NCBI RefSeq assembly: GCF_913060805.1
Contig: NZ_CAJXTC010000010.1
Span: 62,001 to 126,000 of the forward strand
Length of the DNA stretch: 64,000 nt
Direction of reading: 5' to 3'
Origin: an uncultured Draconibacterium sp.
Lineage (GTDB): Bacteria; Bacteroidota; Bacteroidia; Bacteroidales; Prolixibacteraceae
Position 1 is the first letter of the stretch. Each line of letters opens with the position of its first letter. The notes under the pieces are model-generated. The model saw only the letters and a list, made by a program, of their open reading frames with translations. It was not told where the DNA came from and made no database searches. The position numbers and the translations under genes are program-made. Positions 30,436 to 63,878 of this stretch are shown here, piece by piece.

Positions 30436-31545
30436 TTAGACGGTAACCTTTTTTAGTCCCAACAGAAAATCTTCATTAATGCTGGCACCTAGTCCGGGCG
30501 TTTCAGTAATGGTAATTTTACCCTTGTCGCCATAAATAATACCTCCTTCAACCGGATCTTCTTCCATCATTAATGGTGTGTCAAAATCGTAATAAACAAT
30601 GTTTTTTGAAGAAAGGGAAAAATGGGCTGCTGCGGTGAATCCCAAACGCGTTTCAAGGAATCCACCAACCTGGATTTCCATTTTTGCGGCTTTAGCAAAT
30701 TTCACAATCTTCAGTGCTTTAAAAATACCACCCGATTTGCTCAGTTTAATATTGATCAGGTCGCAGGCATATAAATCGATCAATCGTTTTGCATCGATGT
30801 GATCACAGCAGGTTTCGTCGGCCATAATTGGAATAGGGCTGAATCGCCGGATCTCAGGTAGAGCCATGTAATCCCAACGCGGAATAGGCTCCTCGCAATG
30901 TTGTATTTTATAAGGTGTAAGCGCTTTTAAAATATCGAGTGCTTCTTCGGTTTTCCATCCCTGGTTGGCATCCAAACGAATCGGAATTTTTGGACCAATC
31001 GCTTCGCGAATTCTTTTAATGCTTTCCACATCCTGTTCTTTCGAGTGGCCAAGCTTTACTTTTACGATCTCAAAACCATTCTCAACAATACGTTTAGCAT
31101 CGGCAGCCATCTTTTCCGGGTTGGTAAGACTTACCGTATAATCTATTTGCATTTCCTTGTCGTTTTGCCCTCCAAGAAATTGGTAAAGTGGTACACCGAC
31201 TTTTTGCGCCGAGATGTCATACAACGCCATGTCGAAAGCACTTTTTATGCTCGAATTACCATAAATAGTTTTGTCCATTGCGTGTGTGCATGCCTCAATG
31301 TCTTCCGGGTTTTTTCCTTTTAAAACCTGGGCCAGATACTGCCCAACAATAAAACAGGTTTCCATGCTTTCGCCGTTGATCGTCATAAACGGGCTACATT
31401 CGCCAAAGCCTGTAATGCCTTGGTTTGTGTGGATAACAACGATCACATTTTGGGCGTGATACATTGGGCCTAATGAAATAACAAAAGGTTCTTTTAATTT
31501 GATGGGAGATTGGTAGATATCAATCGTGTCGATTATAAGGTTCAT
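30436..31545 (-). CDS. Enolase-superfamily dipeptide epimerase
   Basis: Member of the mandelate-racemase/muconate-lactonizing group of the enolase superfamily. Catalytic and metal residues are in place: K162-x-K164 (VKVKLG), D192 (RLDANQGW), E218 (HCEEP), D243 (MADET) and K267/K270 (NIKLSKSGG). Length 369 fits dipeptide epimerases, with an IQVGGFLETRLGFTAAAHF end. Specificity depends on the 20s and 50s loops and cannot be read; it differs from the Ala-Glu type epimerase at 54189. It lies alone, 114 bp from the TonB receptor gene on the same strand. Confidence 0.85.
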   Translation of the reverse strand: MNLIIDTIDIYQSPIKLKEPFVISLGPMYHAQNVIVVIHTNQGITGFGECSPFMTINGESMETCFIVGQYLAQVLKGKNPEDIEACTHAMDKTIYGNSSIKSAFDMALYDISAQKVGVPLYQFLGGQNDKEMQIDYTVSLTNPEKMAADAKRIVENGFEIVKVKLGHSKEQDVESIKRIREAIGPKIPIRLDANQGWKTEEALDILKALTPYKIQHCEEPIPRWDYMALPEIRRFSPIPIMADETCCDHIDAKRLIDLYACDLINIKLSKSGGIFKALKIVKFAKAAKMEIQVGGFLETRLGFTAAAHFSLSSKNIVYYDFDTPLMMEEDPVEGGIIYGDKGKITITETPGLGASINEDFLLGLKKVTV

Positions 31546-31751
31546 TGTAATAGTGCAGTTTTTTTACAAAGTTGATAAATCTTTTCAATGAATTTGTATG
31601 ACAAATGATATAATTTGACAGATTAACAAAATAATTAAGATTTAAGATCACGTTTAAATTTTGATGGAGAAGAAAAACATTAAGATCCAAATTTCAGTAA
31701 TGAATCAGGTTATATGGGAAAGAAACTTCTTTTGTCTTATCAGACGGATTT

Positions 31752-46869: not shown

Positions 46870-46984
46870 ACAATAATAGTTTAGTTTGTTAAACAATAAA
46901 ATTTAGTTCATTTAAATCTCCTGTGTAAATAGTTGATCAGACTCACAAGAAGACTTTCTTTTTTGTTCTTAATTCACATCATTT

Positions 46985-47974: not shown

Positions 47975-48100
47975 CTTTTGTCTTTCTACCTAAAAAGACG
48001 TTCGTAACATCTACTATACCTAATTCAACAATAAAAAAATCAATAAATATTAAATTCTAATGAAAATGGGAGAGGAGGATAACTTTTTCGGCAACTGGTT

Positions 48101-50467: not shown

Positions 50468-50652
50468 AGCGAGAAAGATTGATGTTTTAAGGACTGTTAA
50501 AGTACTAAAAAATAGCTGGGGTGCAAGTTGTATAAATGGCCATATTTTCATTGAAAAATACAATGTTTTACAAATCAGGACTATACGATTTTTGTGCACA
50601 GAAATTTGACCATAATGATTGTGTAAATACATTTTTTCTATTAAAATGCTAC

Positions 50653-50674
50653 ATTTGTAATATGTAGTACATTT
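50653..50674. promoter_or_regulatory. GntR-type operator, site 1 (upstream of gntR)
   Basis: ATTTGTA, spacer ATATGTAG, then TACATTT. The left arm equals that of the two other copies; the right arm has changed (TACATTT against TACAAAT). The contained TGTAGTACA fits the GT-N3-AC core of FadR-subfamily GntR sites. It overlaps a TACATTTG -7 box (50650-50657) and lies 33 bp before the gntR start, suggesting autoregulation. Confidence 0.8.
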
Positions 50675-50707
50675 AAACGTATTTACCACTGACCAAAATT
50701 TACGATA

Positions 50708-51433
50708 ATGGATGAAGTCTTTAGAAAAATCGGGAGCAAGTTAACGCTGAGCCAAAAAATTGAACGTAGAATTGAAGCTGCAATTCGTGAGAAAAAATTA
50801 CCGGTAGGATCAAGGTTGCCAACCGAAAGAGAATTGTGCGAATCGTTTGGTGTTAGCCGAACGGCATTGCGCGAAGCACTGCGTCGGTTAAGTGCACGCG
50901 GACTCATAGAAATTACCAAAGGTAGTGGAATGACTGTTACCGGGCTAAAGATTGACGACGCCATTGAAAACCTGAATTTGTATTACGATATGCAGTTCGA
51001 CCATAATCTGATTGCTCAAATTATTGAAGTGCGCAGGTTATTCGAGCCCGAGATTGCAGGATTGGCAGCCAAACAACGCACACAAAACGACTTAAGCGAT
51101 ATTCAGGATAATATTGAGGCTTTTAAGGCCTGTAATCCTGACAATATTCAAATGGAGGCCGACCTGGATAATAAGTTTCATTTATTGATTGCCAAAGCAA
51201 CGCATAACCCGATTGTGCAGATTTCGATGGAGCCTATTTATTCGCTTTTGCCGCGCATGCGAAACCTGATTTACGCAAATGTAGAGGGCGAAAAAGACAT
51301 TACGCTCGAGTATCATCTGAAAATATTTGATGTAATAAACAAACAAAAAAGGGAAGAGGCAGCTGAGCTAATGAAAGTACATTTGCACCGTACAATGGAA
51401 ATCTATCAGAAATACCTGCACAACTCTATTTAG
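50708..51433 (+). CDS. GntR/FadR-family transcriptional regulator
   Basis: DNA-binding regulator, 241 residues. Residues 10-78 form the winged helix (SQKIERRIEAAIREKKLPVGSRLPTERELCESFGVSRTALREALRRLSARGLIEITKGSGMTV); the rest is an FCD ligand domain (IIEVRRLFEPEIAGLAAKQ, DLDNKFHLLIAKATHNPIV, YHLKIFDVINKQKREEAAELMKVHLHRTM) whose Asp and His residues usually bind a metal and a small carboxylate. It heads the peptidoglycan-recycling block, and three copies of one operator lie before its own gene and two other units. The effector is likely a cell-wall metabolite; that is inference. Confidence 0.95.
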   Translation: MDEVFRKIGSKLTLSQKIERRIEAAIREKKLPVGSRLPTERELCESFGVSRTALREALRRLSARGLIEITKGSGMTVTGLKIDDAIENLNLYYDMQFDHNLIAQIIEVRRLFEPEIAGLAAKQRTQNDLSDIQDNIEAFKACNPDNIQMEADLDNKFHLLIAKATHNPIVQISMEPIYSLLPRMRNLIYANVEGEKDITLEYHLKIFDVINKQKREEAAELMKVHLHRTMEIYQKYLHNSI

Positions 51434-51447
51434 GATACAACGGTTTT

Positions 51448-52881
51448 ATGAAATTTTTACAAAGCGTATTTTTTATTGGTTTGGCATTGCTCGTTTTTGC
51501 CTGTCAGAATAAAAAAGAGGAAGTGTTCGATTATCAAAATTATTTATCTCAGGGAAAATTCAAAGAAGCTGAAATCAGGTTGAATGAGCTAATTTCTGAT
51601 GATCCGCAGAACGAACAATTAGCTATTCAGCTGGAAACCATCCACCGTTTACGAAAGGAGTTTCCTTATACTCGGGCTGATGTAAAAGAACAGTTGAGCG
51701 AATACTTCCCGGATTTAACAGACGATGACCTGAACCAATGGGAAAATGCCAGGCAGCTGGAGATGCGTGTTATCGATGGTGAGAAGCGTTATTTTTCAAG
51801 GTCGGTCAGTAATTTCTTTCGTTTAAACGAAGCTGCCGGAAAGATTAAAGAAGAGAAAAATGGGAAAGCCTACGATGGTGTTGAAGATTTTCAGCAGACC
51901 GTTATTCCACAGTGGTTTGAAAAACCAATTGAGCCACGAAATCCTTTTGTTCCGCAACGCATAAAAGTAGATTATACAATTACGCTGGACGCCAATGCAG
52001 TGCCGGCAGGCGAACTGGTAAAATGCTGGTTACCTTATCCGCGAACCGGGTCGCAACGTTTGCCTAGGGTCGAATTTTTGGAAGCCAGTCAGGAGGAATA
52101 TATCATTGCTCCGAACGAAACCATGCAACGCACCGTGTATATGGAGAAAAAAGCGGTGCAAGATGAGGCGACGGTTTTTCAAATCTCCTATGTTTTTGAA
52201 ACTGCTGCACAGTGGTTCGATATAAAACCAGAAGATGTTCAGGGATACGATAAAAACTCGGAGCTATATAAAAAATATACTGCCGAGCGTTTGCCACACA
52301 TTGTGTTTAACGATCAGATAAAATCATTAGCTAAAAATATTGTTGGCGACGAAAAAAATCCGGTAAAACAAGTAGAGCTCCTGTATTATTGGATCAACGA
52401 TAATATCCCGTGGGCCGGAGCACTCGAATATTCGGTTATGCCTTGCATTCCGTGTTATGTGCTCGAAAATATGCACGGCGATTGTGGTATGCAAACCTTT
52501 TTGTTTTTGAGTATGGCTCGCAGCCTCGGAATTCCGTGTAAATGGCAAAGTGGCTGGTATTTGTTGCCGCAAACCAAAAACCTGCACGATTGGGCCGAGG
52601 TGTATTACGAAGGCGTTGGTTGGGTGCCGGTTGATCCGTCGTTTAAGCTAATCGATTCGGAAGACAAGCGCATTAAAGAGTTTTACCTGAACGGACTGGA
52701 TTGTTACCGCTTGGTGGTAAACGATGATTTTGCCCGTGAACTGGTTCCACCTAAAAAGTATTATCGAAGCGAACCTTTTGATTTTCAGAGAGGAGAGCTG
52801 GAATGGGAGGGTGGTAACTTGTATTTCGATACATGGGATTATCATCTCGATTTTGAATATTTGCCGGCTACCGAAAACTAA
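51448..52881 (+). CDS. Transglutaminase-like lipoprotein
   Basis: Envelope lipoprotein (MKFLQSVFFIGLALLVFAC, lipid Cys19) with a TPR-like N-terminal helical part (residues 25-75), a beta domain (KVDYTITLDANAVPAGELVKCWLPYP) and a transglutaminase-type papain-like core: Cys346 in MHGDCGMQTFL, His380 in NLHDWAEVYY and Asp396 in GWVPVDPSF. In prokaryotes such folds often act as proteases or amidases on peptides. It starts 14 bp after gntR, so it is cotranscribed with the regulator. A role in trimming cell-wall peptides is suggested by context only. Confidence 0.88.
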   Translation: MKFLQSVFFIGLALLVFACQNKKEEVFDYQNYLSQGKFKEAEIRLNELISDDPQNEQLAIQLETIHRLRKEFPYTRADVKEQLSEYFPDLTDDDLNQWENARQLEMRVIDGEKRYFSRSVSNFFRLNEAAGKIKEEKNGKAYDGVEDFQQTVIPQWFEKPIEPRNPFVPQRIKVDYTITLDANAVPAGELVKCWLPYPRTGSQRLPRVEFLEASQEEYIIAPNETMQRTVYMEKKAVQDEATVFQISYVFETAAQWFDIKPEDVQGYDKNSELYKKYTAERLPHIVFNDQIKSLAKNIVGDEKNPVKQVELLYYWINDNIPWAGALEYSVMPCIPCYVLENMHGDCGMQTFLFLSMARSLGIPCKWQSGWYLLPQTKNLHDWAEVYYEGVGWVPVDPSFKLIDSEDKRIKEFYLNGLDCYRLVVNDDFARELVPPKKYYRSEPFDFQRGELEWEGGNLYFDTWDYHLDFEYLPATEN

Positions 52882-52949
52882 TCGTATCTAGATGTTAAGG
52901 ATGAATTTTTCATAGAGTGATTCTCCGGAAAAATCACTTTAAAATTTAT

Positions 52950-52971
52950 ATTTGTAATATGTAATACAAAT
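52950..52971. promoter_or_regulatory. GntR-type operator, site 2 (upstream of the NlpC/P60 gene)
   Basis: ATTTGTA, spacer ATATGTAA, TACAAAT: perfect 7-bp arms with an 8-bp spacer. It overlaps a TATATTTG -7 box (52947-52954) and lies 11 bp before the start codon. It is identical over all 22 bp to the site at 57018. Confidence 0.9.
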
Positions 52972-52982
52972 CTTGTAAGGCA

Positions 52983-54170
52983 ATGAAATTTACTCACATT
53001 ATTTTTCTATTCTTTTTGGTTATGGCATCTTGTACGCAACAGCAACAATCATCTGATATTGAACAACAAGTTGATCAATTGATTGATCAGCAAATTAAAG
53101 ACAAACGCGTAGAATACTGTAAGGTAAGTGTTTCTGTAAATGATGGCAAGACGGCAATAACCGGAGCTACTGTTTCTAAAGCGACCTTTGAATCGTTGGA
53201 ATCGTTTGCATCGGAAAACGGATGTGATTTTTCTGTTGACCTGTTGCCTGATGAGACTTTTAGCGAAAATCCATGGGCAGTGGTTACTATTTCGGTTTGT
53301 AATATCCGGAGTAACGCAAGGCATTCTGCCGAAATGTTAACGCAGTCGATTATGGGTACTCCTGTTAAGGTTTACCGCAAAGAGGATGGCTGGTATTTAG
53401 TTCAAACGCCCGACCGTTATTTTGGCTGGGTTGATGGCGCAGGAATTGCTCTGAAAAGCAATGAGGAAATGGCTGAATGGAAAACATTTAAGAAAGTACT
53501 TTACAAAAATCAATATGGATTTGCTTATGCTGAAGCGGATGCGAAATCAAACATTGCAACCGATCTGGTATTAGATAACTTATTAAGTGTGGTGGATGAA
53601 ACAGCTGGATTTTATAAAACAGTTTTGGCCGACGGTCGTGAAGCTTTTGTGAAAAAGGATGAATGTATGGGCCTTGATAAATGGTACAATAAAAGTGTTG
53701 TCGCAAATGACGTGCTGGCAACCGCCGAAAAATTTATGGGCGTTCCCTATTTGTGGGGAGGTACTTCGGCAAAAATGGTCGATTGCAGTGGTTTTGTAAA
53801 ATCGGCTTATTACAATCATGGAGTAATTTTGCAACGCGATGCATCGCAGCAAACATTATACGGAGAGCTGGTTGACACCGAAAACGGATACGATACCTTA
53901 GAAGCCGGCGACCTCGTGTTTTTTGGACGAAAAGCAACTGCTGATCAACGCGAAAGAGTAACACATGTTGGGTTGTGTTTAGGCGATCAGGAGTTTATTC
54001 ATGCATCGGGAAAAGTGCGTGTAAACAGCTTGAACCGCGACAGTGAAAAATATACCGAACATTACGAAAAAGGTTTTGTACGTGCCCGCCGTATTATCGA
54101 TAACGTTGATGGCGACGGAATTGAGTGGGTGGTTGACAACGCGTTTTTCAAACAGGTTTTACCTGAATAA
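52983..54170 (+). CDS. NlpC/P60 endopeptidase lipoprotein (YkfC-like)
   Basis: Cell-wall peptide hydrolase. Lipoprotein signal MKFTHIIFLFFLVMASC (Cys17), two bacterial SH3-like domains (about residues 95-155 and 170-235), and an NlpC/P60 domain with Cys268 (MVDCSGF), His328 (THVGL) and His340 (FIHASG). This is the layout of Bacillus YkfC, which cuts the gamma-D-Glu-diaminoacid bond of peptides with a free N-terminal L-Ala, giving L-Ala-D-Glu. The next gene, 18 bp on, is the matching epimerase, exactly as in ykfBC. Substrate assignment is from homology and context. Confidence 0.93.
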   Translation: MKFTHIIFLFFLVMASCTQQQQSSDIEQQVDQLIDQQIKDKRVEYCKVSVSVNDGKTAITGATVSKATFESLESFASENGCDFSVDLLPDETFSENPWAVVTISVCNIRSNARHSAEMLTQSIMGTPVKVYRKEDGWYLVQTPDRYFGWVDGAGIALKSNEEMAEWKTFKKVLYKNQYGFAYAEADAKSNIATDLVLDNLLSVVDETAGFYKTVLADGREAFVKKDECMGLDKWYNKSVVANDVLATAEKFMGVPYLWGGTSAKMVDCSGFVKSAYYNHGVILQRDASQQTLYGELVDTENGYDTLEAGDLVFFGRKATADQRERVTHVGLCLGDQEFIHASGKVRVNSLNRDSEKYTEHYEKGFVRARRIIDNVDGDGIEWVVDNAFFKQVLPE

Positions 54171-54188
54171 CATCAAGAATCAGAAGAC

Positions 54189-55208
54189 ATGGAATTACGT
54201 TTTAAACCTTTTGAACTTCAGTTAAAACATACTTTTACGCTGGCAACCAGCTCGCGCACAACCACGCCGGTAATGTTGGTTGAGCTGGAACACGACGGAC
54301 TGATTGGATACGGAGAAGCATCGATGCCGCCGTATTTGGGCGAATCGCACGAAACGGTTAGCCGCTTTCTGAAAAAAGTGGACTTGTCGGGTTTTAGAGA
54401 TCCGTTCCGTATGGATGAAATTCTGGAATATGTGGATCAGCTGGAGTCGGGAAACCGCGCAGCAAAAGCTTGTATTGATATTGCATTGCACGATTTGGTC
54501 GGTAAAATTCTGGGGCAGCCCTGGTATAAAATCTGGGGATTAAAACCTGAAAATACGCCTTACACAACCTACACTATCGGTATTGACACGCGCGAGGTGG
54601 TAATTGAAAAAACCAAAGAGGCCGCTGAGTTCAAAATGCTAAAGGTTAAAATGGGGCGCGATAACGACAAAGAGCTGATTGAAACGATTCGATCGGTTAC
54701 CGATGTGCCTTTGTGTGTGGATGTAAACCAGGGGTGGAAAGACAAACATGAAGCTTTGGAGATGATACACTGGATGGATGAAAAGGGGATCGTTTTTGTG
54801 GAGCAGCCCATGCCTAAAGAGCAGCTGGATGATATGGCCTGGCTAACGGCACACAGTCCGCTGCCAACTATTGCCGACGAAGCTTTTCAGCGCATTCACG
54901 ATATTCCGAAATTTAAAGATGTGTATTCAGGAATAAATATTAAGCTGATGAAAAGCACCGGTATGCGCGAGGCAAAGAAAATGATTGATGTAGCGCGTGC
55001 TCTCGATATGAAGGTTATGATCGGGTGTATGACCGAAACATCGTGCGCTATTTCAGCAGCTTCGCAGTTATCGCCACTTTGCGATTGGGCCGACCTTGAC
55101 GGCGCACTGCTAATTACCAACGATGTTTTTGATGGCGTGAAGGTGATTGATGGGAAAGTTACCTTGTTCGACCTTCCCGGAATTGGCGTTGTAAAGCGCT
55201 ACCTCTAA
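54189..55208 (+). CDS. L-Ala-D/L-Glu epimerase
   Basis: Enolase-superfamily dipeptide epimerase (YcjG/YkfB type) that turns L-Ala-D-Glu from murein peptides into L-Ala-L-Glu for normal peptidases. Catalytic bases K152-x-K154 (LKVKMG) and K252/K255 (NIKLMKSTG); metal ligands D178 (CVDVNQGW), E205 (FVEQP), D230 (IADEAF). The sequence GCMTETSCAISAASQL is typical for the Ala-Glu group, and length 339 fits. It directly follows the YkfC-like gene. The other epimerase in this window (30436) is less similar and lacks this context. Confidence 0.93.
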   Translation: MELRFKPFELQLKHTFTLATSSRTTTPVMLVELEHDGLIGYGEASMPPYLGESHETVSRFLKKVDLSGFRDPFRMDEILEYVDQLESGNRAAKACIDIALHDLVGKILGQPWYKIWGLKPENTPYTTYTIGIDTREVVIEKTKEAAEFKMLKVKMGRDNDKELIETIRSVTDVPLCVDVNQGWKDKHEALEMIHWMDEKGIVFVEQPMPKEQLDDMAWLTAHSPLPTIADEAFQRIHDIPKFKDVYSGINIKLMKSTGMREAKKMIDVARALDMKVMIGCMTETSCAISAASQLSPLCDWADLDGALLITNDVFDGVKVIDGKVTLFDLPGIGVVKRYL

Positions 55209-55225
55209 TTATCTGCATAAAAAAA

Positions 55226-55268
55226 AAAGAACCGAAAAAACTGATGACTCAGTTCTGTTCGATTCTTT
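55226..55268. terminator. Bidirectional terminator between the epimerase and murQ
   Basis: Imperfect stem: AAAGAACCGAA (from 55226) against TTCGATTCTTT (55258-55268), with an inner ACTGA/TCAGT pair. A-rich on one side and T-rich on the other, in the 86-bp gap between two convergent genes. Confidence 0.65.
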
Positions 55269-55294
55269 ATCTTTCGCATAAACTTTAATCTGTC

Positions 55295-56116
55295 CTAAAC
55301 AGATTGCTGTCCTTTTTTCTTGTAATTATCGAGTACGGCCCGAACTGATCCGTGTAAAAGAAGCAGGCGTTTAGCTTCTTCAAACTCAATGGCCAGTTCG
55401 TCAACGATCATTTTCGATCCACGTTCAACCAGCTTTTTGTTGGTGAGCTGCATGTCGACCATTTTGTTGCCTTTTACGCGCCCCAGTTTTATCATCAGCG
55501 AAGTTGTGATCATATTCAGCACCATTTTCTGCGCAGTTCCGGCTTTCATTCGTGTACTTCCGGTTACAAACTCGGGGCCTACAATCGGTTCGATGGCGAT
55601 TTTTGCCACTTTGGCAATTTCCGAATCAGGATTACAGGTGATGCAAGCGGTAAGCAATCCGTTGTTATTGCCATCTTGCAAAGCACCAATAACGTAAGGT
55701 GTACCTCCCGAAGCTGCAATTCCAACAATAGTATCGCGATCATTCACCTGAAACTTCTGCAGGTCTTCCCAACCTCCGTGAATATTGTCTTCTGCGGCTT
55801 CAACAGCTTTGCGAATGGCACGGTCGCCACCGGCAATAAGGCCAATTACAACGCCATCGGGCATGCCATAAGTTGGCGGAATTTCCGATGCGTCCAAAAT
55901 ACCCAGTCGTCCGCTGGTGCCTGCGCCCAAATAAAACAAACGACCGCCTGCTTTAATGCGGTCAACCAGTTGGGTGACTAATTTTTCTATCTGTGGAATT
56001 TCTTTTTGTACGGCAACATGAATTTTTGCATCCTCGTTGTTAATTCCGGTTAACAGCTCTTCAACTGTCATCTGGTCGAGGTTGTCGTATAAAGATGATG
56101 ATTCTGTGACCCTCAT
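55295..56116 (-). CDS. murQ: N-acetylmuramic acid 6-phosphate etherase
   Basis: Cytoplasmic SIS-domain lyase that splits MurNAc 6-phosphate into GlcNAc 6-phosphate and D-lactate. Diagnostic motifs: LFYLGAGTSGRLGILDASEIPPTYG, GLIAGGDRAIRKAVEAAEDN (active-site Glu region), VGIAASGGTPYVIGAL and TGSTRMKAGTAQKMVLNMITT. At 273 residues it is a little shorter than the usual ~300, at the C-terminus. It lies 4 bp after the kinase gene, forming an operon that turns imported MurNAc into central amino-sugar metabolites. Confidence 0.96.
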   Translation of the reverse strand: MRVTESSSLYDNLDQMTVEELLTGINNEDAKIHVAVQKEIPQIEKLVTQLVDRIKAGGRLFYLGAGTSGRLGILDASEIPPTYGMPDGVVIGLIAGGDRAIRKAVEAAEDNIHGGWEDLQKFQVNDRDTIVGIAASGGTPYVIGALQDGNNNGLLTACITCNPDSEIAKVAKIAIEPIVGPEFVTGSTRMKAGTAQKMVLNMITTSLMIKLGRVKGNKMVDMQLTNKKLVERGSKMIVDELAIEFEEAKRLLLLHGSVRAVLDNYKKKGQQSV

Positions 56117-56120
56117 TTTC

Positions 56121-56957
56121 TTATAAATTGTAATGAAACTTTTTAAGTCCGTTTATAGGTTTATCAATAATATTTCCGATCTCAATTTTTCTATTGAATG
56201 CGACTTCCTTAAGTAAATCTGAATAGTGGTACGCAATCGAACCCACAAAGTTTACCGTGTAGTTTTGGTAGTCGTTATAGCGCTCAATGTTCCGGAAAAA
56301 GAAATCGGTAAAACTTCTTTTTATCAGGTTCTGAACGTAAATATGATTTCTGTTTTTGTTCAAAAATTCTGAAAATTTGGCCAGGTAGCGACTCGGGTAT
56401 TCTTCGCGATAAACAGAGTTTAAAACATCCGCCATTTCAAGGTGCAGTTCGCTTTCCATTTTTTGTTTCAGGTCTTCGGGAACGGCACGTTTAAAATAGT
56501 CGTTCATCAAAAGTTTGCCCAAATAAGCACCACTTCCTTCGTCGCCCAAAATGAAACCAAGCGTAGGAACTTTATCTACAATTTCGGAGCCATTGTAAAG
56601 GCACGAATTGGTGCCGGTACCCAGTATACAGGCAATTCCCGATGATTTCCCAAGTAACGCACGTGCGGCACCTAAAATATCGTCTTCAACAGCTATCGAC
56701 GCTTTGGGAAATACCTTTTTCAAAGCATCCGAAACAACGTGGTCGGTTTTGCCTTTTATACATCCCGCACCATAAAAATATACTTCGCTTACCTCTTCTT
56801 TTTGGTCGTTTGTGAATGTGTTTGAGAGAGTTGCAAAAATTTCTTCTGTTTGCTGGAAAAAGGGATTGATCCCGTTAGTGTTGATAATGAATTCTTTTTC
56901 AGGACTCATAAACAACCAATCGGTTTTTGATGAGCCACTGTCTGCTATTACAATCAT
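56121..56957 (-). CDS. BadF/BadG-type sugar kinase (MurNAc/GlcNAc kinase-like)
   Basis: ASKHA-fold kinase of the BadF/BadG/BcrA/BcrD family, the group of NagK and of MurK of Tannerella and Clostridium. Phosphate loop 1 MIVIADSGSSKTDW, phosphate loop 2 near ACILGTGTNSCLYNG, then PTLGFILGDEGSGAYLGKLL, which is characteristic of GlcNAc kinases. Length 278. As first gene before murQ it most likely makes MurNAc 6-phosphate (MurK role). No anhydro-MurNAc kinase or PTS gene is in the window, so this kinase would be the only entry to MurQ here. Sugar specificity is inference. Confidence 0.88.
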   Translation of the reverse strand: MIVIADSGSSKTDWLFMSPEKEFIINTNGINPFFQQTEEIFATLSNTFTNDQKEEVSEVYFYGAGCIKGKTDHVVSDALKKVFPKASIAVEDDILGAARALLGKSSGIACILGTGTNSCLYNGSEIVDKVPTLGFILGDEGSGAYLGKLLMNDYFKRAVPEDLKQKMESELHLEMADVLNSVYREEYPSRYLAKFSEFLNKNRNHIYVQNLIKRSFTDFFFRNIERYNDYQNYTVNFVGSIAYHYSDLLKEVAFNRKIEIGNIIDKPINGLKKFHYNL

Positions 56958-56995
56958 TCTGATACTATTGGTTTATTTTCAGAAATTTCCTATCG

Positions 56996-57003
56996 CAAAT
57001 GTA
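56996..57003 (-). promoter_or_regulatory. -7 box for the kinase-murQ operon
   Basis: TACATTTG on the minus strand, 38 bp before the kinase start. The operator at 57018-57039 would cover the -30 to -50 region of this promoter. Confidence 0.6.
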
Positions 57004-57017
57004 CAAAATCTTTTCTG

Positions 57018-57039
57018 ATTTGTAATATGTAATACAAAT
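57018..57039. promoter_or_regulatory. GntR-type operator, site 3 (divergent kinase-murQ and amidase promoters)
   Basis: Identical to the site at 52950: ATTTGTA, ATATGTAA, TACAAAT. It lies between two divergent -7 boxes (minus 56996-57003, plus 57046-57053) and contains the likely plus-strand -33 TTTG, so one bound dimer could control both units. Confidence 0.92.
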
Positions 57040-57045
57040 TTTGTC

Positions 57046-57053
57046 TACATTTG
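57046..57053 (+). promoter_or_regulatory. -7 box for the amidase operon
   Basis: TACATTTG fits TAnnTTTG, with TTTG 23 bp upstream (57019-57022) as a possible -33 inside the operator. It lies 25 bp before the ATG at 57079. Confidence 0.65.
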
Positions 57054-57078: not shown

Positions 57079-60051
57079 ATGAAGAATTTAAACCTGACTA
57101 AATCAAGAATCCTTAAAGTAAGCAAGAAAATGGCAAAATTCCTGTTTTTCTTGTTCATAATTCTCCTTTCTACTTCTGTAAGTGCTCAGGAAAAAGAATC
57201 GCTGAAAGAGCAGTTGAACAAAGTGCTGAAGCAAAAAAGCAGTTCCGCATTTTATATGGGTAACGAAAATTACCTGAACGGAAAAAGGGTGGCGCTTGAT
57301 ACTGCATACTTTTCACCGGGCAACGACACCTTGTATCTCTATTTTAATAAGGCGCTTGCCGAAATGCCTTTTAGGGAAAACAGTTTGTCGATTGTTCGCG
57401 ACTCTATTCGGAATGTATTGCCCGATTCGTTAAAAGAAATCCCTTTGAAAATTTGGGCCAATCAGTTGACATTAGAAGATTTGGTACCAAATTATTACAG
57501 AAACGAAATTTCAGTTGATAAAAACAGATTAACACCTGCAAAACGAGATAGAAGAAATGTAGTTCAAAAGTTGCGCCCTTTTGAAATTTCAGAGGGGCTT
57601 GACGGAGCAAATATAGCAATGTGGAACAGTCACGGCTGGTACTACGAACCTGCCCGCGACCGTTGGGAATGGCAGCGAGCACGTTTGTTTACTAACCTCG
57701 AAGATATTTCGCCAAGTTCGTTTGTAATCCCGTTTATTATACCGATGCTGGAAAATGCCGGAGCCAATGTTTTTAATGCACGTGAGCGTGACTGGCAGAT
57801 TCACGAGGTAGTTGTTGATAACGATCGATCTACCGGGAAAAGCAAATTCAAAAAACCAAGAAAACGCAACGACGACGAAAAAGGATTTGTTTATTCTGAA
57901 TTGATACAGGGAAACTCAAATCCTTTTCAGGAAGGAACTGCAGTAAGTTTCGAAAGCAGAAATAAATCAAATGTTGCCACCTATATTCCTGATTTCCCGG
58001 AGGCAGGAGAATACGGAGTTTATGTTTCGTATGCAAAAGGAGACGGGCCGGTAACTTATCGTGTAACACATTCGGGTGGTGTGACTGATTTTCTGGTTGA
58101 TCAGCGAATGGGTTACGGAACCTGGATCTATCTCGACAAATTTTATTTCAATGCAGGAAAAGATAAGAAGGCAGCCAAAGTAGAGCTGATCGCTCCGGCA
58201 GGCGAGGGAAAAACATTTTCTGCCGATGCTGTGCGTTTTGGTGGCGGAATGGGAAATATTGTTCGCAATGGAAGACCTGGCGGACTTGCTCGTTTTTACG
58301 AAGGTGCCCGCTACAACCTCCAATATTCAGGTGCACCCGACACGCTGGTGTGGAATCTGTACAATGGTGAAGATGATTATAAAGACGATTATATGAGTCG
58401 TGGTGAATGGGTAGACTGGTTAATGGGAGCGCCTTTTGGTCCAACGAAAAACCGAATGGCACCTGGTTTGGAAATACCTATCGATCTGGCTTTTGCATTT
58501 CATACCGACGCCGGAATTTTACCCGACAACCAGATTGTAGGAACACTGGGCATTTATTCAACCGATAGAGATACTTCTGTTTTTCCTGATGGACAATCAA
58601 AATACGCCTCACGTGATTTGACGGATCTGATCCAATCGCAGATTGTAAGCGATATAAATGCCGTGTATAAAAGCAACTGGACGCGACGCGGAATGTGGAA
58701 TTCGCAATACAGCGAAGCTTATCGTCCGCAGGTGCCAACAATGTTGCTCGAATTATTGTCGCACCAAAACCTGGAGGATGCCAAATATGTGTTGAATCCA
58801 CAATTTCGGTTTGATGTTTCGCGTGCCATTTATAAAGGAATGTTGCGCTTTATAACATCGCAAAATGGACAGGAGTATGTAGTTCAGCCTTTGCCTGTTG
58901 ATCATTTAAATGCCCGCTTTGCTAACGGAAATAAAGTGAAATTGTCATGGAAACCGGTACTCGACGAATTGGAACCAACTGCGGTACCTGAAAAATATAT
59001 GGTGTATAAACGAATTGGTGACAATGGTTTTGATAATGGAACACTTGTAACTGAGCCGGAAATTACGCTGACCGATCTGAAGCCCGGAAAAGTTTATGGA
59101 TTCAGAGTGACTGCTGTAAACGCTGGTGGCGAAAGTTTTCCGTCAGAAACTGTGGCGGTTGGAATTGCTGAAAACAGCAAAGGCGATGTGTTGATCGTAA
59201 ATGGTTTTGATCGAATTGATGGTCCTGCTATTTTTGAAACCGATACGCTGGCGGGAGTTTTGCGTTTCCTCGATCATGGAGTGGCGTATGGATACGATGT
59301 GTCGACTACCGGCGATCAGTACGATTTTGAGCGAAAATCTGTTTGGTTGGATGATGATAGCCCCGGTTTTGGAGCGAGTTATGCCGATCTGGAAACAACC
59401 ATTTTCAGAGGTAATACTTTCGATTTCTCGTTGGTTCACGGGAAAAGCCTGCTAGCCAATGGCTTTAGTTTTGTAACGTCGAGTGATGAAGCGGTAGAAG
59501 ACGGTTTGACAGAACTTGAAAACTACAAGTTGGTTGATTTGCTTTATGGCGAAGAAAAACAAACATTATTACCCGGCAAGGATTCAACGGTACACATCGA
59601 AATCTATTCTGAGAAAATGATAAATGCGCTTTCAGAATACGCTGAGAATGGTGGAAACATTTTTATGTCGGGAGCGTATGTGGGCACGGAAATTCCAAAA
59701 GATAAAACGCAAAAAGAACGAATCGGAAAGCTGTTTGGTTTTAAATGGCGAACAGATCACGCCGTAAAAAACGGACAATTTTATTCCGTGAATTCAAATA
59801 GTAACTTTACAGGAGCGTTTAACACTGATTACGTTTTGGATCAATACCCGGTTGAAGCGCCCGATGGAATTGAAGCGTTTAATGAAGATGCGAAAACGAT
59901 TTTCCGGTATGGCGAAAATGGAATCAGTGCAGGTGTTTATTACGAAAACAACTATAAATCGCTGGTGCTGGGATTTCCTTTTGAGAGTGTGAAAGAGCAG
60001 AATCAGCGTGATGCGTTAATGCGCGAAATATTGAAAATGTTAAATGATTAA
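57079..60051 (+). CDS. Two-part N-acetylmuramoyl-L-alanine amidase with golvesin-type insert
   Basis: Large exported protein, 990 residues. A signal peptide ends at SVSAQ (the ATG at residue 18 would start it directly). An Amidase_3-like catalytic domain appears split: part one 176-240 (IAMWNSHGWYYEP, His185; ARLFTNLED, Glu209), part two 465-600 (FAFHTDAG, His475; VPTMLLELLSHQN, Glu558). Between them lies a golvesin/CBM-like domain (about 285-390). An FN3 domain (605-705) and a flavodoxin-like C-terminal region follow. Such proteins are sometimes labelled xanthan lyase in databases, but the zinc-amidase pattern and the murein context argue for stem-peptide release. First gene of the plus-strand operon. 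Confidence 0.8.
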   Translation: MKNLNLTKSRILKVSKKMAKFLFFLFIILLSTSVSAQEKESLKEQLNKVLKQKSSSAFYMGNENYLNGKRVALDTAYFSPGNDTLYLYFNKALAEMPFRENSLSIVRDSIRNVLPDSLKEIPLKIWANQLTLEDLVPNYYRNEISVDKNRLTPAKRDRRNVVQKLRPFEISEGLDGANIAMWNSHGWYYEPARDRWEWQRARLFTNLEDISPSSFVIPFIIPMLENAGANVFNARERDWQIHEVVVDNDRSTGKSKFKKPRKRNDDEKGFVYSELIQGNSNPFQEGTAVSFESRNKSNVATYIPDFPEAGEYGVYVSYAKGDGPVTYRVTHSGGVTDFLVDQRMGYGTWIYLDKFYFNAGKDKKAAKVELIAPAGEGKTFSADAVRFGGGMGNIVRNGRPGGLARFYEGARYNLQYSGAPDTLVWNLYNGEDDYKDDYMSRGEWVDWLMGAPFGPTKNRMAPGLEIPIDLAFAFHTDAGILPDNQIVGTLGIYSTDRDTSVFPDGQSKYASRDLTDLIQSQIVSDINAVYKSNWTRRGMWNSQYSEAYRPQVPTMLLELLSHQNLEDAKYVLNPQFRFDVSRAIYKGMLRFITSQNGQEYVVQPLPVDHLNARFANGNKVKLSWKPVLDELEPTAVPEKYMVYKRIGDNGFDNGTLVTEPEITLTDLKPGKVYGFRVTAVNAGGESFPSETVAVGIAENSKGDVLIVNGFDRIDGPAIFETDTLAGVLRFLDHGVAYGYDVSTTGDQYDFERKSVWLDDDSPGFGASYADLETTIFRGNTFDFSLVHGKSLLANGFSFVTSSDEAVEDGLTELENYKLVDLLYGEEKQTLLPGKDSTVHIEIYSEKMINALSEYAENGGNIFMSGAYVGTEIPKDKTQKERIGKLFGFKWRTDHAVKNGQFYSVNSNSNFTGAFNTDYVLDQYPVEAPDGIEAFNEDAKTIFRYGENGISAGVYYENNYKSLVLGFPFESVKEQNQRDALMREILKMLND

Positions 60052-60063
60052 GAGACTTAAATA

Positions 60064-61524
60064 ATGACTAAAATTAACTGTTTCGTACCGGCCGCAGCCT
60101 GGTCGCAAGTGGCAGAAATGATTGGAGAATTACAGGCCAATCCTTCAGTAAATAAAATATTCTTACCCGAAAATGTGGCCAAAGAAGTCGGCGAAAAGGC
60201 AGAAGCTTTTTCGTTTGAATCTCTAACTTCTACTGCGATGGTAAAAGAAATGGCTGCCTCGTCAGAAGACGCGGATTACGTTTTGTTGCTGACAAAAGTA
60301 ACGGCCGTAAAACTGGGGCAATTTGCCATCGAGCGTTTGGTGGACACCGCAGAACTGACTGGAGCGGTAAAAGTATATTCTGATTATTACGAGGTGAAAG
60401 AAGGAAAACTGGCAACGCACCCTGTTATTGATTACCAGGAAGGCAGTTTGCGCGACGACTTTAATTTTGGTCCGCTGGTGTTGTACAAAGCCGATGCATT
60501 TCAAACGGCTGTAAAAAACATGACACAGGATTTTGAACATGCCGGCATGTATTACCTGCGATTAAAAGTGGCGCAGCAGGGCGAATTGTTCCGCATGCCT
60601 GAGTTTTTATACACTATTGACGAGACCGACAACTGCAAAAGTGGTCAGAAAATATTTGATTACGTTGATCCGAAAAACCGCCAGGTGCAGGTTGAAATGG
60701 AGCAAGCGGCAACCGAACATTTAAAAGATGTGGAGGCGTGGATAAGTCCTGATTTTACGCCGGTGGAATTGGATGAAACGGCTTTTGCGAAAAAAGCGTC
60801 GGTGGTAATTCCGGTGCGAAACCGCGAAAAAACTATTGCCGATGCAATCGAATCGGTACTGATGCAAAAAACGAATTTCGATTTTAATTTGATCGTCATC
60901 GACAATCACTCTACAGATAAAACCACTTCAATTATCCAGTCTTTTGCTGAAAAAGATGAGCGTGTGGTTCACATTATCCCGGTGCGCGAAGATCTTGGAA
61001 TTGGCGGATGCTGGAACCTTGGCGTTCACGATTCGCGCTGCGGAATGATTGCAATGCAGCTCGATAGCGACGATATTTACAAAGACGAAAATACGCTGCA
61101 AAAAGTGGTTGATGTTTTCGAAGCAGAAAAATGTGCGATGGTTGTGGGAACTTACCAGTTGGTGAATTTCGATTTGGAAGAAATACCACCGGGTATTATC
61201 GACCACAAAGAGTGGACGCCCGACAATGGAAAAAACAATGCATTGCGTATTAATGGTTTAGGTGCGCCGCGTGCTTTTTACACACCTGTATTGCGTGATG
61301 TGAAAATTCCAAATACCAGTTATGGCGAAGATTATGCAGTTGGTCTGGCGATTTCAAGAGATTATCAGATTGGCCGTATTTACGACAATTTATACCTGTG
61401 CCGCCGTTGGGATGATAATTCGGATGCGGCGCTGGATATTGTAAAAATGAATGCACACAATACCTACAAAGACAGGATACGTACCATCGAGTTAAAAGCC
61501 CGTCAAAGGAAGAACAGAGGGTAA
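60064..61524 (+). CDS. Tandem glycosyltransferase family 2 protein
   Basis: 486-residue protein without signal or membrane segment. The C-terminal half (residues 246-486) is a complete GT2 domain: ASVVIPVRNREKTIADAIES, IVIDNHSTDKT, the metal motif DSDD at 334-337 (MQLDSDDIY), and GEDYAVGL. The N-terminal half (1-235) looks like a second, degenerate GT-A domain: EDADYVLLLTKV occupies the DxD position, followed by VYSDYYEVKEGK and GPLVLYKADAF. It starts 12 bp after the amidase gene. The donor and acceptor are unknown; a soluble GT2 in a catabolic wall operon is unexpected. Confidence 0.88.
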   Translation: MTKINCFVPAAAWSQVAEMIGELQANPSVNKIFLPENVAKEVGEKAEAFSFESLTSTAMVKEMAASSEDADYVLLLTKVTAVKLGQFAIERLVDTAELTGAVKVYSDYYEVKEGKLATHPVIDYQEGSLRDDFNFGPLVLYKADAFQTAVKNMTQDFEHAGMYYLRLKVAQQGELFRMPEFLYTIDETDNCKSGQKIFDYVDPKNRQVQVEMEQAATEHLKDVEAWISPDFTPVELDETAFAKKASVVIPVRNREKTIADAIESVLMQKTNFDFNLIVIDNHSTDKTTSIIQSFAEKDERVVHIIPVREDLGIGGCWNLGVHDSRCGMIAMQLDSDDIYKDENTLQKVVDVFEAEKCAMVVGTYQLVNFDLEEIPPGIIDHKEWTPDNGKNNALRINGLGAPRAFYTPVLRDVKIPNTSYGEDYAVGLAISRDYQIGRIYDNLYLCRRWDDNSDAALDIVKMNAHNTYKDRIRTIELKARQRKNRG

Positions 61525-61584: not shown

Positions 61585-61611
61585 AAACTGTAAATGTGCA
61601 AAACAAACTTT

Positions 61612-62550
61612 ATGAATTCAATTTCAAAGGAAATAAAACAACTTCTCTCGGATCAGAAAACAGAATGGGAACTGGCAGGAAAAAACTTTGCCGGATTGGA
61701 AGGTGTGCAGGTGCGCGAGTTTCAGTTCGACGGATTTACGGTTAAAGTCCAGTTTAATCCCGGCCGAATTGTTTCGTCGGCAGCCAAAGTGGATAAAAAG
61801 TCGATTGCAGCGCGCCCGTGTTTTTTGTGTGCGGAAAATCGTCCGGCCGAGCAGCGAGGCGTAGCTTTTGGCGATTACGAGGTGTTGGTAAATCCATTCC
61901 CGATATTTCCCGAGCATTTTACCATTCCTGCTTTTGCCCACACACCACAGCAGATAAAAGGAAACTTTGGTAACATGTTAGATCTGTCGCAGGCCATGGA
62001 AGGTTTTTCCTTGTTTTACAATGGTCCAAAATGTGGCGCGTCGGCACCTGATCATTTTCATTTTCAGGCAGGGAATGCAGGATTTATGCCGCTTGATGAG
62101 GAAACGACCACATTAAAGGAAAAATACGGTGATTGCTGGGAAATCGATGAAGTGAATTACTGCGCCATAAAAGATGGTCTTCGCAACTTCTTGGTATTGG
62201 AATCGGTCGATAAAATGGTTTTGATTAATGCTTTTACACATATTTATTCAGAGCTTGAAGACCCACAAAATGACGAGGAACCGATGCTAAATATTCTTGC
62301 TCGTTATAATGATGGTGGCTGGCGAGTTCTGGTTTTTCCGCGTGCCTTGCATCGTCCTTCGCAATATTTTGCCGAAGGAGAGGAGAACATTCTGATCAGT
62401 CCGGCCTCGGTTGATATGGGCGGTGTATTGATCACTCCACAGGAAAAAGATTTTTTGAAGATCGGGAAAACCGACATTGAAAGTATAATGAAACAGGTTT
62501 TATTGCCTGTCGACCAATTCGATAAACTAACTACAAAACTTAAACAATGA
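61612..62550 (+). CDS. DUF4922 HIT-like nucleotidyltransferase/phosphorylase
   Basis: 312-residue cytoplasmic protein with a histidine-triad-type active site, H148-F-H150-F-Q152 in GASAPDHFHFQAG, as in GalT, Ap4A phosphorylase and GDP-L-galactose/ADP-glucose phosphorylases. RPCFLCAENRP (C70, C73) and NPFPIFPEHFTIP are also typical of the GalT/Apa group. I start at the ATG at 61612 (MNSISKEIKQ), six codons into the open frame. The stop overlaps the SpoIID start by 4 bp (ATGA), implying translational coupling. It may release or make a sugar nucleotide for the GT2 protein; no substrate is established. Confidence 0.85.
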   Translation: MNSISKEIKQLLSDQKTEWELAGKNFAGLEGVQVREFQFDGFTVKVQFNPGRIVSSAAKVDKKSIAARPCFLCAENRPAEQRGVAFGDYEVLVNPFPIFPEHFTIPAFAHTPQQIKGNFGNMLDLSQAMEGFSLFYNGPKCGASAPDHFHFQAGNAGFMPLDEETTTLKEKYGDCWEIDEVNYCAIKDGLRNFLVLESVDKMVLINAFTHIYSELEDPQNDEEPMLNILARYNDGGWRVLVFPRALHRPSQYFAEGEENILISPASVDMGGVLITPQEKDFLKIGKTDIESIMKQVLLPVDQFDKLTTKLKQ

Positions 62551-63878
62551 GCAGTCCAAATATTCACGTAGGCATAATGAGTGCCGATAAAATCGATTTT
62601 AAACTTCACGGAGAATACCAGCTGGTGGGTACAAAACATACTTTTTCGGGCGATGAAACAGTGCGTTTCGAAAATGGAACTTTGCAGCTTGCCGACTCCG
62701 AAATCAGTGGCGATAAATTGTATTTTATGCCGCTTGACAAGGAAAACTCGGAGTTCGAATTGAAAGATGTAACCATCGGTGTAAATTTTCACTGGGAGCA
62801 AAAGGAAGACCAGAAATTTCAGGGAGCCTTAAAGTTTATTATCGAAGAGGGACAAATTACGGCCGTAAATATTTTGTCGATTGAAGATTACCTGATCAGC
62901 GTAATTTCGTCGGAAATGAGTGCCAAAAGTTCGCTTGATTTGTTGAAAGCGCACGCTATTATTTCGCGCAGCTGGTTAATTGCACAAACCGAAAAGCAGG
63001 ATAAACTGACCGATGCCGGAGAAAGCTATGAAAGCACTTTTGAAACCGACGATGAGTATATAAAGTGGTACGACCGGGAAGATCACATAAATTTTCATGT
63101 TTGCGCCGACGATCATTGCCAGCGCTACCAAGGGACAACACGTTCGCACAACCCGAATGTGGTGAAGGCGGTAAACGAAACTGCCGGAGTGGTACTTGCA
63201 TACAAGGGCGCAATTTGTGATGCTCGTTTCTCGAAATGTTGCGGTGGAATTGCCGAACTTTTTGAGAATTGCTGGGAACCTGTAAATCATCCGTACCTTA
63301 CTGCAGTGATTGATAATCCTGCTTCTCCAAAAGGTTTTGAAACCGATCTTACGGTGGAAGAAAATGCCGTTCCGTGGTTAAAAAATGCACCGGAATCGTT
63401 TTGTAATACCGATGATGAAGAAGTGCTGAAACAGGTGCTGAACGAGTACGACTGGACGGCCAAAGATTTTTACCGCTGGACGGTGGAATACAAACAAGAT
63501 GAACTTTCTGCATTAATTCTGAAACGTTCCGGTCATGATTTCGGAAAGATTTTGGATATGATCCCGGTTGAGCGCGGTGTTTCAGGACGATTGATAAAAC
63601 TAAAAATTGTTGGTTCGAAAAAGACGTTAACAGTTGGAAAAGAGCTCGAAATCCGAAGGTGGTTGAGCGAGTCGCATCTGTACAGTTCTGCATTTCTGGT
63701 TGATAAAGTGAATGTTGTGGAAGGCGTTCCCGGAAAAATTATTCTGCGAGGAGCCGGCTGGGGGCATGGTGTTGGATTGTGCCAGATCGGTGCTGCCGTT
63801 ATGGGTCACAAAGGCTATAAATACGATGAAATTCTGAATCACTATTTTAAAAATATAGACCTCGAAAAACGATACTAA
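62547..63878 (+). CDS. SpoIID/LytB-family protein without signal peptide
   Basis: 443-residue protein of the SpoIID lytic-transglycosylase family. Catalytic Glu123 lies in SVISSEMSAKSSLDLLKAHAIISRSW; H180, C186, H190 and C191 resemble the Cys/His zinc site of Clostridioides SpoIID; and GWGHGVGLCQIGAAVMGHK (404-422) is the family hallmark. It begins MSSPNIHVGIMSADKIDF, with no signal peptide, and an in-frame TAA two codons before the ATG rules out a longer N-terminus. It should therefore stay in the cytoplasm, unlike known SpoIID proteins. Coupled to the DUF4922 gene by a 4-bp overlap. Confidence 0.9.
   Translation: MSSPNIHVGIMSADKIDFKLHGEYQLVGTKHTFSGDETVRFENGTLQLADSEISGDKLYFMPLDKENSEFELKDVTIGVNFHWEQKEDQKFQGALKFIIEEGQITAVNILSIEDYLISVISSEMSAKSSLDLLKAHAIISRSWLIAQTEKQDKLTDAGESYESTFETDDEYIKWYDREDHINFHVCADDHCQRYQGTTRSHNPNVVKAVNETAGVVLAYKGAICDARFSKCCGGIAELFENCWEPVNHPYLTAVIDNPASPKGFETDLTVEENAVPWLKNAPESFCNTDDEEVLKQVLNEYDWTAKDFYRWTVEYKQDELSALILKRSGHDFGKILDMIPVERGVSGRLIKLKIVGSKKTLTVGKELEIRRWLSESHLYSSAFLVDKVNVVEGVPGKIILRGAGWGHGVGLCQIGAAVMGHKGYKYDEILNHYFKNIDLEKRY

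Follow-up and report, generated by a model that had tools for sequence, protein, structure and literature searches.

Inverted repeats before peptidoglycan-recycling genes of Draconibacterium as probable operators of the adjacent FadR-subfamily GntR regulator

In a 64,000-nucleotide stretch from an uncultured Draconibacterium sp. (contig NZ_CAJXTC010000010.1, positions 62,001 to 126,000; the whole stretch analysed is called the window here), one inverted repeat stands before a gntR gene, before an NlpC/P60 peptidase and epimerase pair, and in the gap between the divergent murKQ and amidase operons. Could a single regulator tie these units together, and how far would its reach extend? The initial annotation named the adjacent FadR-subfamily GntR protein as the natural binder, and comparative evidence from related genomes supports this assignment. 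With a probability of about 0.83, the repeats are operators of this GntR protein, which would repress a peptidoglycan-recycling regulon spread over the genome and limit its own expression. Because the site lies before many wall-recycling genes, one switch probably controls the pathway throughout the genome. The sites themselves, the genes behind them, their conservation and their co-occurrence with GntR were observed directly, as follows.

The operator copies of the window are:

50653..50674, plus strand: operator 1, 5' of gntR (ATTTGTAATATGTAGTACATTT), by motif scan, with variant sites in orthologous gntR promoters
52950..52971, plus strand: operator 2, 5' of the NlpC/P60 and epimerase genes (ATTTGTAATATGTAATACAAAT), by motif scan, position weight matrix (PWM) score 34.5
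57018..57039, no strand assigned: operator 3, between the divergently transcribed murKQ and amidase...ampG operons, by motif scan, conserved before murK
31592..31606, no strand assigned: operator 4, short form ATTTGTATGACAAAT, an exact match, PWM score 18.3 for the 22-mer 31592-31613

The sequence scan bore out the three copies first read by eye. The exact ATTTGTAATATGTAATACAAAT occurs at 52950-52971 and 57018-57039, the two being the same over all 22 bp, and the copy at 50653-50674 (ATTTGTAATATGTAGTACATTT) carries two mismatches, both in the right arm. The statement that the window held no further copy was contradicted by the short form at 31592-31606, which lies 47 bp upstream of a second dipeptide-epimerase-like gene.

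Across all 79 contigs of the genome (5,484,516 bases) the 18-mer core TTTGTAATATGTANTACA has three exact matches, all in this cluster. The sole further match at one mismatch is C9:26412, before nagX-GH3, and at up to two mismatches eight matches were found vs two for the reversed control. The loose palindrome ATTTGTA-N8-TACAAAT behaved differently, with 99 places genome-wide at up to two mismatches vs 45 in the control, and 14 in the window at up to three mismatches where 9.3 were expected. Many unrelated copies, named in the initial annotation as a refuting finding, were thus revealed by the genome scan for the loosened palindrome only and not for the full motif; the specificity resides in the arms and the conserved spacer together, not in the palindrome alone. 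ATTTGTA-N8-TACAAAT was rejected as a sufficient motif since it is too frequent once loosened. A match inside gntR at 50976, with counterparts inside gntR of L016, L017, L304 and L312, was also set aside, conserved codons being the putative explanation.

The comparison of sites from relatives changed the view of the element. Across 43 unique sites the columns T13, A17 and C18 are invariant, TGT (11-13) and ACA (17-19) are nearly so, and the outer left arm is more variable; site columns are 87-99% identical vs 53-68% for the flanks. This site table was made without L015, L113, L135, the epimerase rows, amidase rows sharing the murK gap and matches above five mismatches; 41 of the 43 sites entered the profile alignment, two short-form sites being excluded, and 42 entered the Python matrix. 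ATTTGT-N3-ACAAAT is retained in short forms that have no good left arm (dacB, the second epimerase, the dehydrogenase of G008 and gntR of L099), which identifies the right half as the core, a GT-N3-AC palindrome of FadR type. As described, a 22-bp inverted repeat is present, but it is not the unit: the site is composite, its most conserved part being the GT-N3-AC core in the right half, with a second, imperfect copy 7 bases upstream that shares 2 bases with the core. Such a composite could possibly be bound by two dimers, or by one dimer with an extra contact. The core TGT-N3-ACA has GT and AC three bases apart, as FadR-subfamily operators do. In Maribellus (L098) the gntR site reads TGTC-T-GACA, a paired change.

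The sites follow the GntR protein among relatives. Among named genomes, the closest found were those of Draconibacterium orientale, D. sediminis and D. mangrovi, whose GntR is 98% identical; the three cluster sites are also present in D. orientale and D. sediminis. An orthologue (E 1e-40, one per genome) was present in 76/140 genomes of the family and in 21/37 of the genus. A genome was called GntR-lacking when it had no match at E 1e-40, and some such genomes are only 70-89% complete. The core at up to one mismatch was found in 20/21 GntR-bearing vs 2/16 GntR-lacking genus genomes, where one of the two latter matches falls inside an ftsZ-like open reading frame (ORF) and the counted match of GntR-bearing G004 and G017 is not a clear regulon site. 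Where the murK start could be mapped in a GntR-bearing locus, its promoter has a site at up to four mismatches in every case (25/25), vs 0/12 in GntR-lacking genus genomes with murKQ (16 genomes lack GntR, 13 of these have murQ and all 13 were fetched, the murK promoter being visible in 12). A profile trained without the murK and amidase sites gave 16.6-32.4 for the 25 GntR-bearing loci, vs at best 13.1 anywhere in the 13 GntR-lacking loci. Where GntR and murQ are present and no murK was mapped, a site lies within 4 kb of murQ in 5/5 complete regions; in L100 and L096 the site precedes murQ by 47-75 bp, and in L106, L107 and L132 it is hundreds of bases off. L015 repeats L100 (same genome), and in L017, whose contig ends just past murQ, no site was found near murQ. 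The amidase gene has an upstream site at up to four mismatches in 16/17 cases.

A promoter held out of training behaved in the same way. A site was identified before a dehydrogenase gene described below in 19/21 GntR-bearing genomes, 18 scoring at least 18.6 and G008 scoring 12.7 with a perfect short core, vs 0/14 GntR-lacking genomes, which are all of those with the dehydrogenase (best score 11.7, G028). At the dehydrogenase operator position of GntR-lacking G011, G025 and G027 (L257, L263, L256) a degenerate GTTTAAAAnAnGTGnAnCAAAT-like stretch was seen, which may be a decayed or differently read site.

How far the set extends could be judged from the targets outside the cluster, by which the regulon looks genome-wide rather than local. 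The proposal of a local regulon holds for the recycling character of its targets and fails for the word local, since nagX-GH3, the dehydrogenase and a dacB-type gene lie on other contigs and the second epimerase-like gene with a site lies elsewhere in the window. In the own-genome profile search (150 of 2954 candidates scored) six matches had E <0.05, of which three are the window sites, two lie upstream of nagX and the sixth precedes the dehydrogenase gene.

The C9:26412 site is 77 bp upstream of a NagX/HGSNAT-like gene, which is followed by a gene with GH3 (NagZ-like) and beta-lactamase domains. Matching sites precede the nagX orthologues of G005, G007, G012 and G030, and nagX, murQ and murK stand in the gntR neighbourhood in 8/70 flanks (L101, L111, L114, L123, L124, L131, L133, L134), a set in which some genomes are present twice. 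A second operator-like site was seen about 195 bp upstream of the nagX site (L145 10205; G000 C9 ~26.6 kb) and is kept in several relatives; in G004, G017 and G032 the pair sits between divergent nagX and anmK. DNA looping between the paired sites is conceivable. The gene anmK was found in 4/37 genomes, all GntR-bearing, with sites in 4/4.

The dehydrogenase site is 31 bp upstream of a gene for a 973-aa flavin adenine dinucleotide (FAD)/iron-sulfur dehydrogenase, whose best PDB matches are LctD and D-lactate dehydrogenases. MurQ cleaves MurNAc-6P (MurNAc, N-acetylmuramic acid) into GlcNAc-6P (GlcNAc, N-acetylglucosamine) and D-lactate, as described in PMC5790795, and therefore an enzyme oxidising D-lactate fits the target set. 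The protein appears to be of the D-lactate/D-2-hydroxyacid type, with D-lactate as the presumed substrate.

The short palindrome ATTTGTNNNACAAAT, with any centre, was not clearly more frequent overall than its reversed control in the 37 genus genomes and was for this reason rejected as a regulon marker. Among the 75 of 91 unique sites listed (the other 16 lie in G034, G012, G013 and G007, all GntR-bearing), 18 are ATTTGT(ATG/CAT)ACAAAT, vs a chance expectation of about 0.04 per genome, and 18/18 occur in GntR-bearing genomes, upstream of the dehydrogenase (5), Peptidase_S13 of PBP4/dacB type (7) and the second epimerase (6). Among the same 75, five are AAT/ATT-centred, of which four are in GntR-bearing genomes before regulon genes (dehydrogenase 3, nlpC 1) and one is in GntR-lacking G028. 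The own genome has two ATTTGTNNNACAAAT sites, both ATG/CAT-centred, one before the dacB-type gene (C35, 66 bp), with a divergent small membrane-protein gene 30 bp away on its other side, and the other before the epimerase gene 30436-31545 (47 bp).

Some weaker or isolated sites were also noted. A weak pair (L219 6579 and 6842, G000 C22, scores 19) lies about 220-490 bp before a SusC-like receptor gene, possibly a muropeptide receptor, with counterparts listed in G012, G024 and G030 and one in G009. In the Maribellus-type G020 an operator-like site (L149 5022) is directly 5' of a GHL10 (PF02638) glycosyl hydrolase gene, plausible as another cell-wall target; its product presumably resembles DigH/YddW.

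The candidate binder has the expected build. It has GntR plus FCD architecture (PF00392 74.4 bits, cutoff 27; PF07729 78.3 bits, cutoff 24.3) with consistent predicted helices, and among the printed orthologues, which reach down to about 60% identity, the recognition helix does not vary. For the predicted model (mean pLDDT, the predicted local distance difference test score, 79.6) the top PDB match is NanR (6on4), where a whole-chain template-modelling score of 0.43 means that the domain arrangement is not fixed; DhdR is also among the nearest folds. As a NanR sequence it does not qualify, with 139.2 bits to model NF003011 vs a cutoff of 260. The residues of the metal-dependent FCD effector site (Asp, three His and Arg) are present: R109, D154, H158, H203 and H225 correspond to NanR R128, D172, H176, H222 and H244, which are described in PMC8012715 as holding zinc and the carboxylate of sialic acid. 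All five are kept in 41/47 orthologues (alignment A2, 47 of 61 listed orthologues), so a MurNAc-like or D-lactate inducer is plausible. In the orthologues of L136 and L138-L142, D154, H203 and H225 are replaced together by I, Q and L, which suggests coordinated loss of metal-dependent sensing, and no gntR site was found there at up to five mismatches (L142 has one at six).

Repression is suggested by where the sites stand relative to putative promoters, with TAnnTTTG, which we take to be the -7 box consensus, read in the sequence at four places:

50650..50657, plus strand: -7 box TACATTTG of gntR, overlapped by operator 1
52947..52954, plus strand: -7 box TATATTTG, overlapped by operator 2
57046..57053, plus strand: -7 box TACATTTG of the rightward promoter, 6 bp from operator 3
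56996..57003, minus strand: -7 box TACATTTG of the leftward (murK) promoter, 14 bp from operator 3

The boxes do overlap or adjoin the sites, as had been noticed, overlapping them at 50653 and 52950 and flanking the 57018 site on both strands, where the left arm is not part of any box. A sigma-70 and terminator scan gave nothing above shuffles. The operator positions probably fit a repressor geometry.

The genes of the cluster, and the second epimerase-like gene, are:

50708..51433, plus strand: gntR, FadR-subfamily (FCD) regulator, proposed repressor (PF00392 74.4 bits, PF07729 78.3 bits)
51448..52881, plus strand: transglutaminase-like lipoprotein (tgl), presumably co-transcribed with gntR (PF01841)
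52983..54170, plus strand: SH3 and NlpC/P60 peptidase (PF00877, PF08239)
54189..55208, plus strand: enolase-superfamily epimerase, L-Ala-D/L-Glu type (PF13378, PF02746)
55295..56116, minus strand: murQ, MurNAc-6-phosphate etherase (TIGR00274 309.6 bits, above cutoff 302)
56121..56957, minus strand: BadF/NagK-type sugar kinase, presumed MurK (PF01869; NagK matches weak, below cutoffs)
57079..60051, plus strand: golvesin/FN3/Amidase_3-like protein (PF25275, PF00041; PF01520 below cutoff)
60064..61524, plus strand: glycosyltransferase family 2 (PF00535)
61594..62550, plus strand: DUF4922 protein (PF16269)
62547..63878, plus strand: SpoIID/LytB-like protein (PF08486)
30436..31545, minus strand: second dipeptide-epimerase-like gene (best NCBIfam L-Ala-D/L-Glu epimerase, 224.6 bits, below cutoff)

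MurQ, above its equivalog cutoff, is among the operator targets. The tgl homologue has a site of its own in L101, L111, L123 and L124. For the epimerase at 54189..55208 the best NCBIfam models are DgcA and Ala-Glu epimerase, all below cutoff. The operon behind operator 3 extends past the window to a GH9-polysaccharide-deacetylase fusion and then an AmpG-like transporter of the major facilitator superfamily (MFS) (L144 ORFs); the latter reaches 171.7 bits to TIGR00901, below the cutoff of 350, and the gene order is nearly that of the Tannerella ampG operon. In the fusion (L144 1881-4334), which lies within the ampG operon, a GH9 cellulase-like domain is combined with one of polysaccharide deacetylase type. 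Apart from the cluster, SusC-like receptor, FecR-type anti-sigma and extracytoplasmic-function sigma-like genes were recognised by eye at 43441-48700 beside an alpha-L-fucosidase gene (48821 onward), a region resembling a polysaccharide-utilisation locus.

From these parts a mechanism could be proposed. Without inducer, GntR dimers bound to the TGT-N3-ACA cores would cover the -7 and start region of the gntR-tgl and nlpC-epimerase units and would occupy the gap between the two divergent promoters of murKQ and amidase...ampG. Further dimers would be bound before the PBP4/dacB-type gene, the second dipeptide-epimerase-like gene, nagX-GH3/NagZ and the FAD D-lactate-type dehydrogenase. Wall turnover or foreign peptidoglycan would supply a carboxylated inducer, most likely MurNAc, anhydroMurNAc, their phosphates, or D-lactate, upon which GntR would be released and the set expressed jointly. 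With the presumed substrates of the kinase, the AmpG-like transporter, the epimerases and the dehydrogenase, the products would cut, import, trim and epimerise the material; MurNAc would be phosphorylated, and D-lactate would be cleaved from it and oxidised. A bolder form, held tentatively and at somewhat less than even odds, is that GntR represents a branch of NanR-like, zinc-dependent repressors undescribed in the literature searched. It would sense a lactyl-bearing MurNAc-type sugar as NanR senses sialic acid, and run recycling as one carbon-source programme, from endopeptidases and the AmpG-type importer to oxidation of the D-lactate released by MurQ. Its composite operator would hold two FadR-type sites 7 bases apart sharing 2 bases, two dimers possibly binding them unequally.

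Several findings weigh against the proposal that GntR governs such a regulon. Some GntR-lacking genomes are incomplete, so absence there may reflect missing sequence. At up to four mismatches upstream sites were found in only 18/65 cases for gntR, 15/21 for nlpC, 5/14 for nagX and 4/17 for tgl, and in 0/22 for the epimerase, the misses being mostly distant orthologues or genes inside operons; the dehydrogenase site was not found in GntR-bearing G033 and G022. Two changes suffice to explain the GntR state on the dehydrogenase tree, so the contrasts between GntR-bearing and GntR-lacking genomes, which are largely clade-bound, give little independent support, and this support is overstated by the Fisher values. 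Profile matches at E <=1 occur in 34/37 genomes, 13/16 GntR-lacking ones included. The best GntR-lacking match (E 0.006, G028) falls inside an ftsZ-like ORF, and other near-matches fall inside coxB- and pheT-like ORFs, named by eye. GntR-lacking G031 has ATTTGTAGTACAAAT at L315 1501-1515, 25 bp before a different FadR-type GntR gene, possibly a replacement or paralogous regulator, so the core alone is not unique to the present GntR, and the g26 orthologues have a different palindrome, TGTATGATAGCATACA, before gntR. The nearest NCBIfam model of the dehydrogenase, for which D-lactate is a candidate substrate, is the D-2-hydroxyglutarate dehydrogenase YdiJ (616 bits, below the cutoff of 1350). 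Good operator-like sites (L152 4969 and L153 4960, in G004 and G017) also precede small cytochrome-c-like genes, named by eye, with no known peptidoglycan link.

Other explanations of the repeats were weighed on the same data. That they are chance or promoter-derived AT-rich matches, taking their TTTG from -7 boxes, can hardly be believed: the loosened palindrome is frequent (the 99 places above) and the left-arm ATTTG coincides with a -7 box at two sites, but the three exact cores of the genome all lie in the cluster, site columns are far more conserved than flanks, held-out targets carry sites, and the left arm at 57018 lies outside the -7 boxes. A regulator other than this GntR, with GntR as bystander or co-member, seems improbable. 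The GT-N3-AC core is common to FadR-type proteins (PMC4494728), and the G031 protein has such a site before its own gene; yet the sites track the presence of this GntR, stand before gntR itself in near relatives (18/65 loci overall), and show the core expected of a FadR-type protein whose recognition helix is the same in the printed orthologues to about 60% identity.

That GntR binds and acts as an activator or mixed regulator is unlikely, though less so. Both -7 boxes lie downstream of the 57018 site, and the dehydrogenase site is followed by a TAAATTTG stretch; an activator could act from either position, and FCD-type activators such as CitO are described. At gntR and nlpC, however, the operator overlaps the -7 box and likely start site, a place where activators are rarely positioned, and NanR, the nearest fold, is a repressor by its description. 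A doubtful but more serious alternative is that D-lactate or another D-2-hydroxy acid serves as the primary signal, the wall genes being controlled through lactate released by MurQ. The dehydrogenase is among the most consistently conserved targets (19/21), its site is found in another family too (G046, L159) with a GntR (71%) present, the pocket has retained the residues by which NanR holds zinc together with the carboxyl and a hydroxyl of its ligand, and DhdR is a near fold. Most targets nevertheless act before lactate (endopeptidase, epimerase, AmpG-like, NagX, AnmK), murK has its site in 25/25 loci, and the NanR analogy suits a MurNAc-type ligand at least equally, since this resembles sialic acid in being a carboxylated N-acetyl sugar. 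Control of recycling by the adjacent GntR as repressor is thus retained as the probable reading.

If it holds, a single predicted switch would reach from release and uptake through epimerisation to MurNAc breakdown, perhaps also to D-lactate oxidation, with its operator and protein specified and a small number of candidate inducers to consider. The shared operator also points to missing parts of the pathway: the role of NagX, the GH9-deacetylase fusion and the substrate of the dehydrogenase.

Among known systems, the E. coli repressor MurR, paired with the murQP operon, belongs to the RpiR family. As is proposed for the present protein, it is a dedicated MurNAc-breakdown repressor beside murQ, and as described in PMC5061867 it acts without MurNAc-6P; the RpiR helix-turn-helix (HTH) with SIS was not found here, the regulator being GntR plus FCD. 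According to the same source MurR governs the divergent murQ operon, whereas here endopeptidase, epimerase, AmpG-like, NagZ-like, PBP4-type and dehydrogenase genes are added. NanR, the FadR-subfamily sialic-acid repressor of E. coli, shares the GntR plus FCD build, the zinc and carboxylate residues and the top fold match, but is described as reading GGTATA-type direct repeats and controlling sialic acid genes, and the sites here are quasi-palindromic TGT-N3-ACA. Operators of the FadR subfamily, of the LldR, PdhR and GlcC type, have GT and AC three bases apart. The present core with its GT-N3-AC spacing matches the consensus in PMC4494728, but most sites here add the overlapping arm 7 bases upstream, and the targets are peptidoglycan genes. 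The table of that survey holds 0 FadR-type regulators from Bacteroidetes. GntR proteins are described for GlcNAc (NagR) and ddl and suggested for GlcNAc clusters in Caulobacter; a FadR-type GntR regulon of peptidoglycan recycling in Bacteroidota was not found described in the open-access literature searched, subscription papers and bioRxiv preprints being mostly outside it.

The worked Bacteroidota example of peptidoglycan-salvage control met in the literature is Tannerella forsythia, whose operon xanthan lyase-gtf-gtf-lytB-ampG-ybbC-murT-murK-murQ is described in PMC5388701, with the hybrid two-component protein GppX as its activator. The operon behind operator 3, taken together with murKQ, has almost the same genes in almost the same order, the kinase gene at 56121..56957 standing beside murQ as in Tannerella murTKQ (PMC5388701), and the golvesin/FN3/Amidase_3-like gene is the probable counterpart of the Tannerella xanthan lyase gene. 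NagX was considered as a Tannerella-type MurT transporter and rejected, because MurT is described in PMC5790795 as a sodium-symporter/MFS-type protein. The Tannerella genes are transcribed as a unit, their activator GppX having an AraC-like HTH, and the word GntR is absent from PMC5388701; a similar set of genes is thus under a quite different regulator there.

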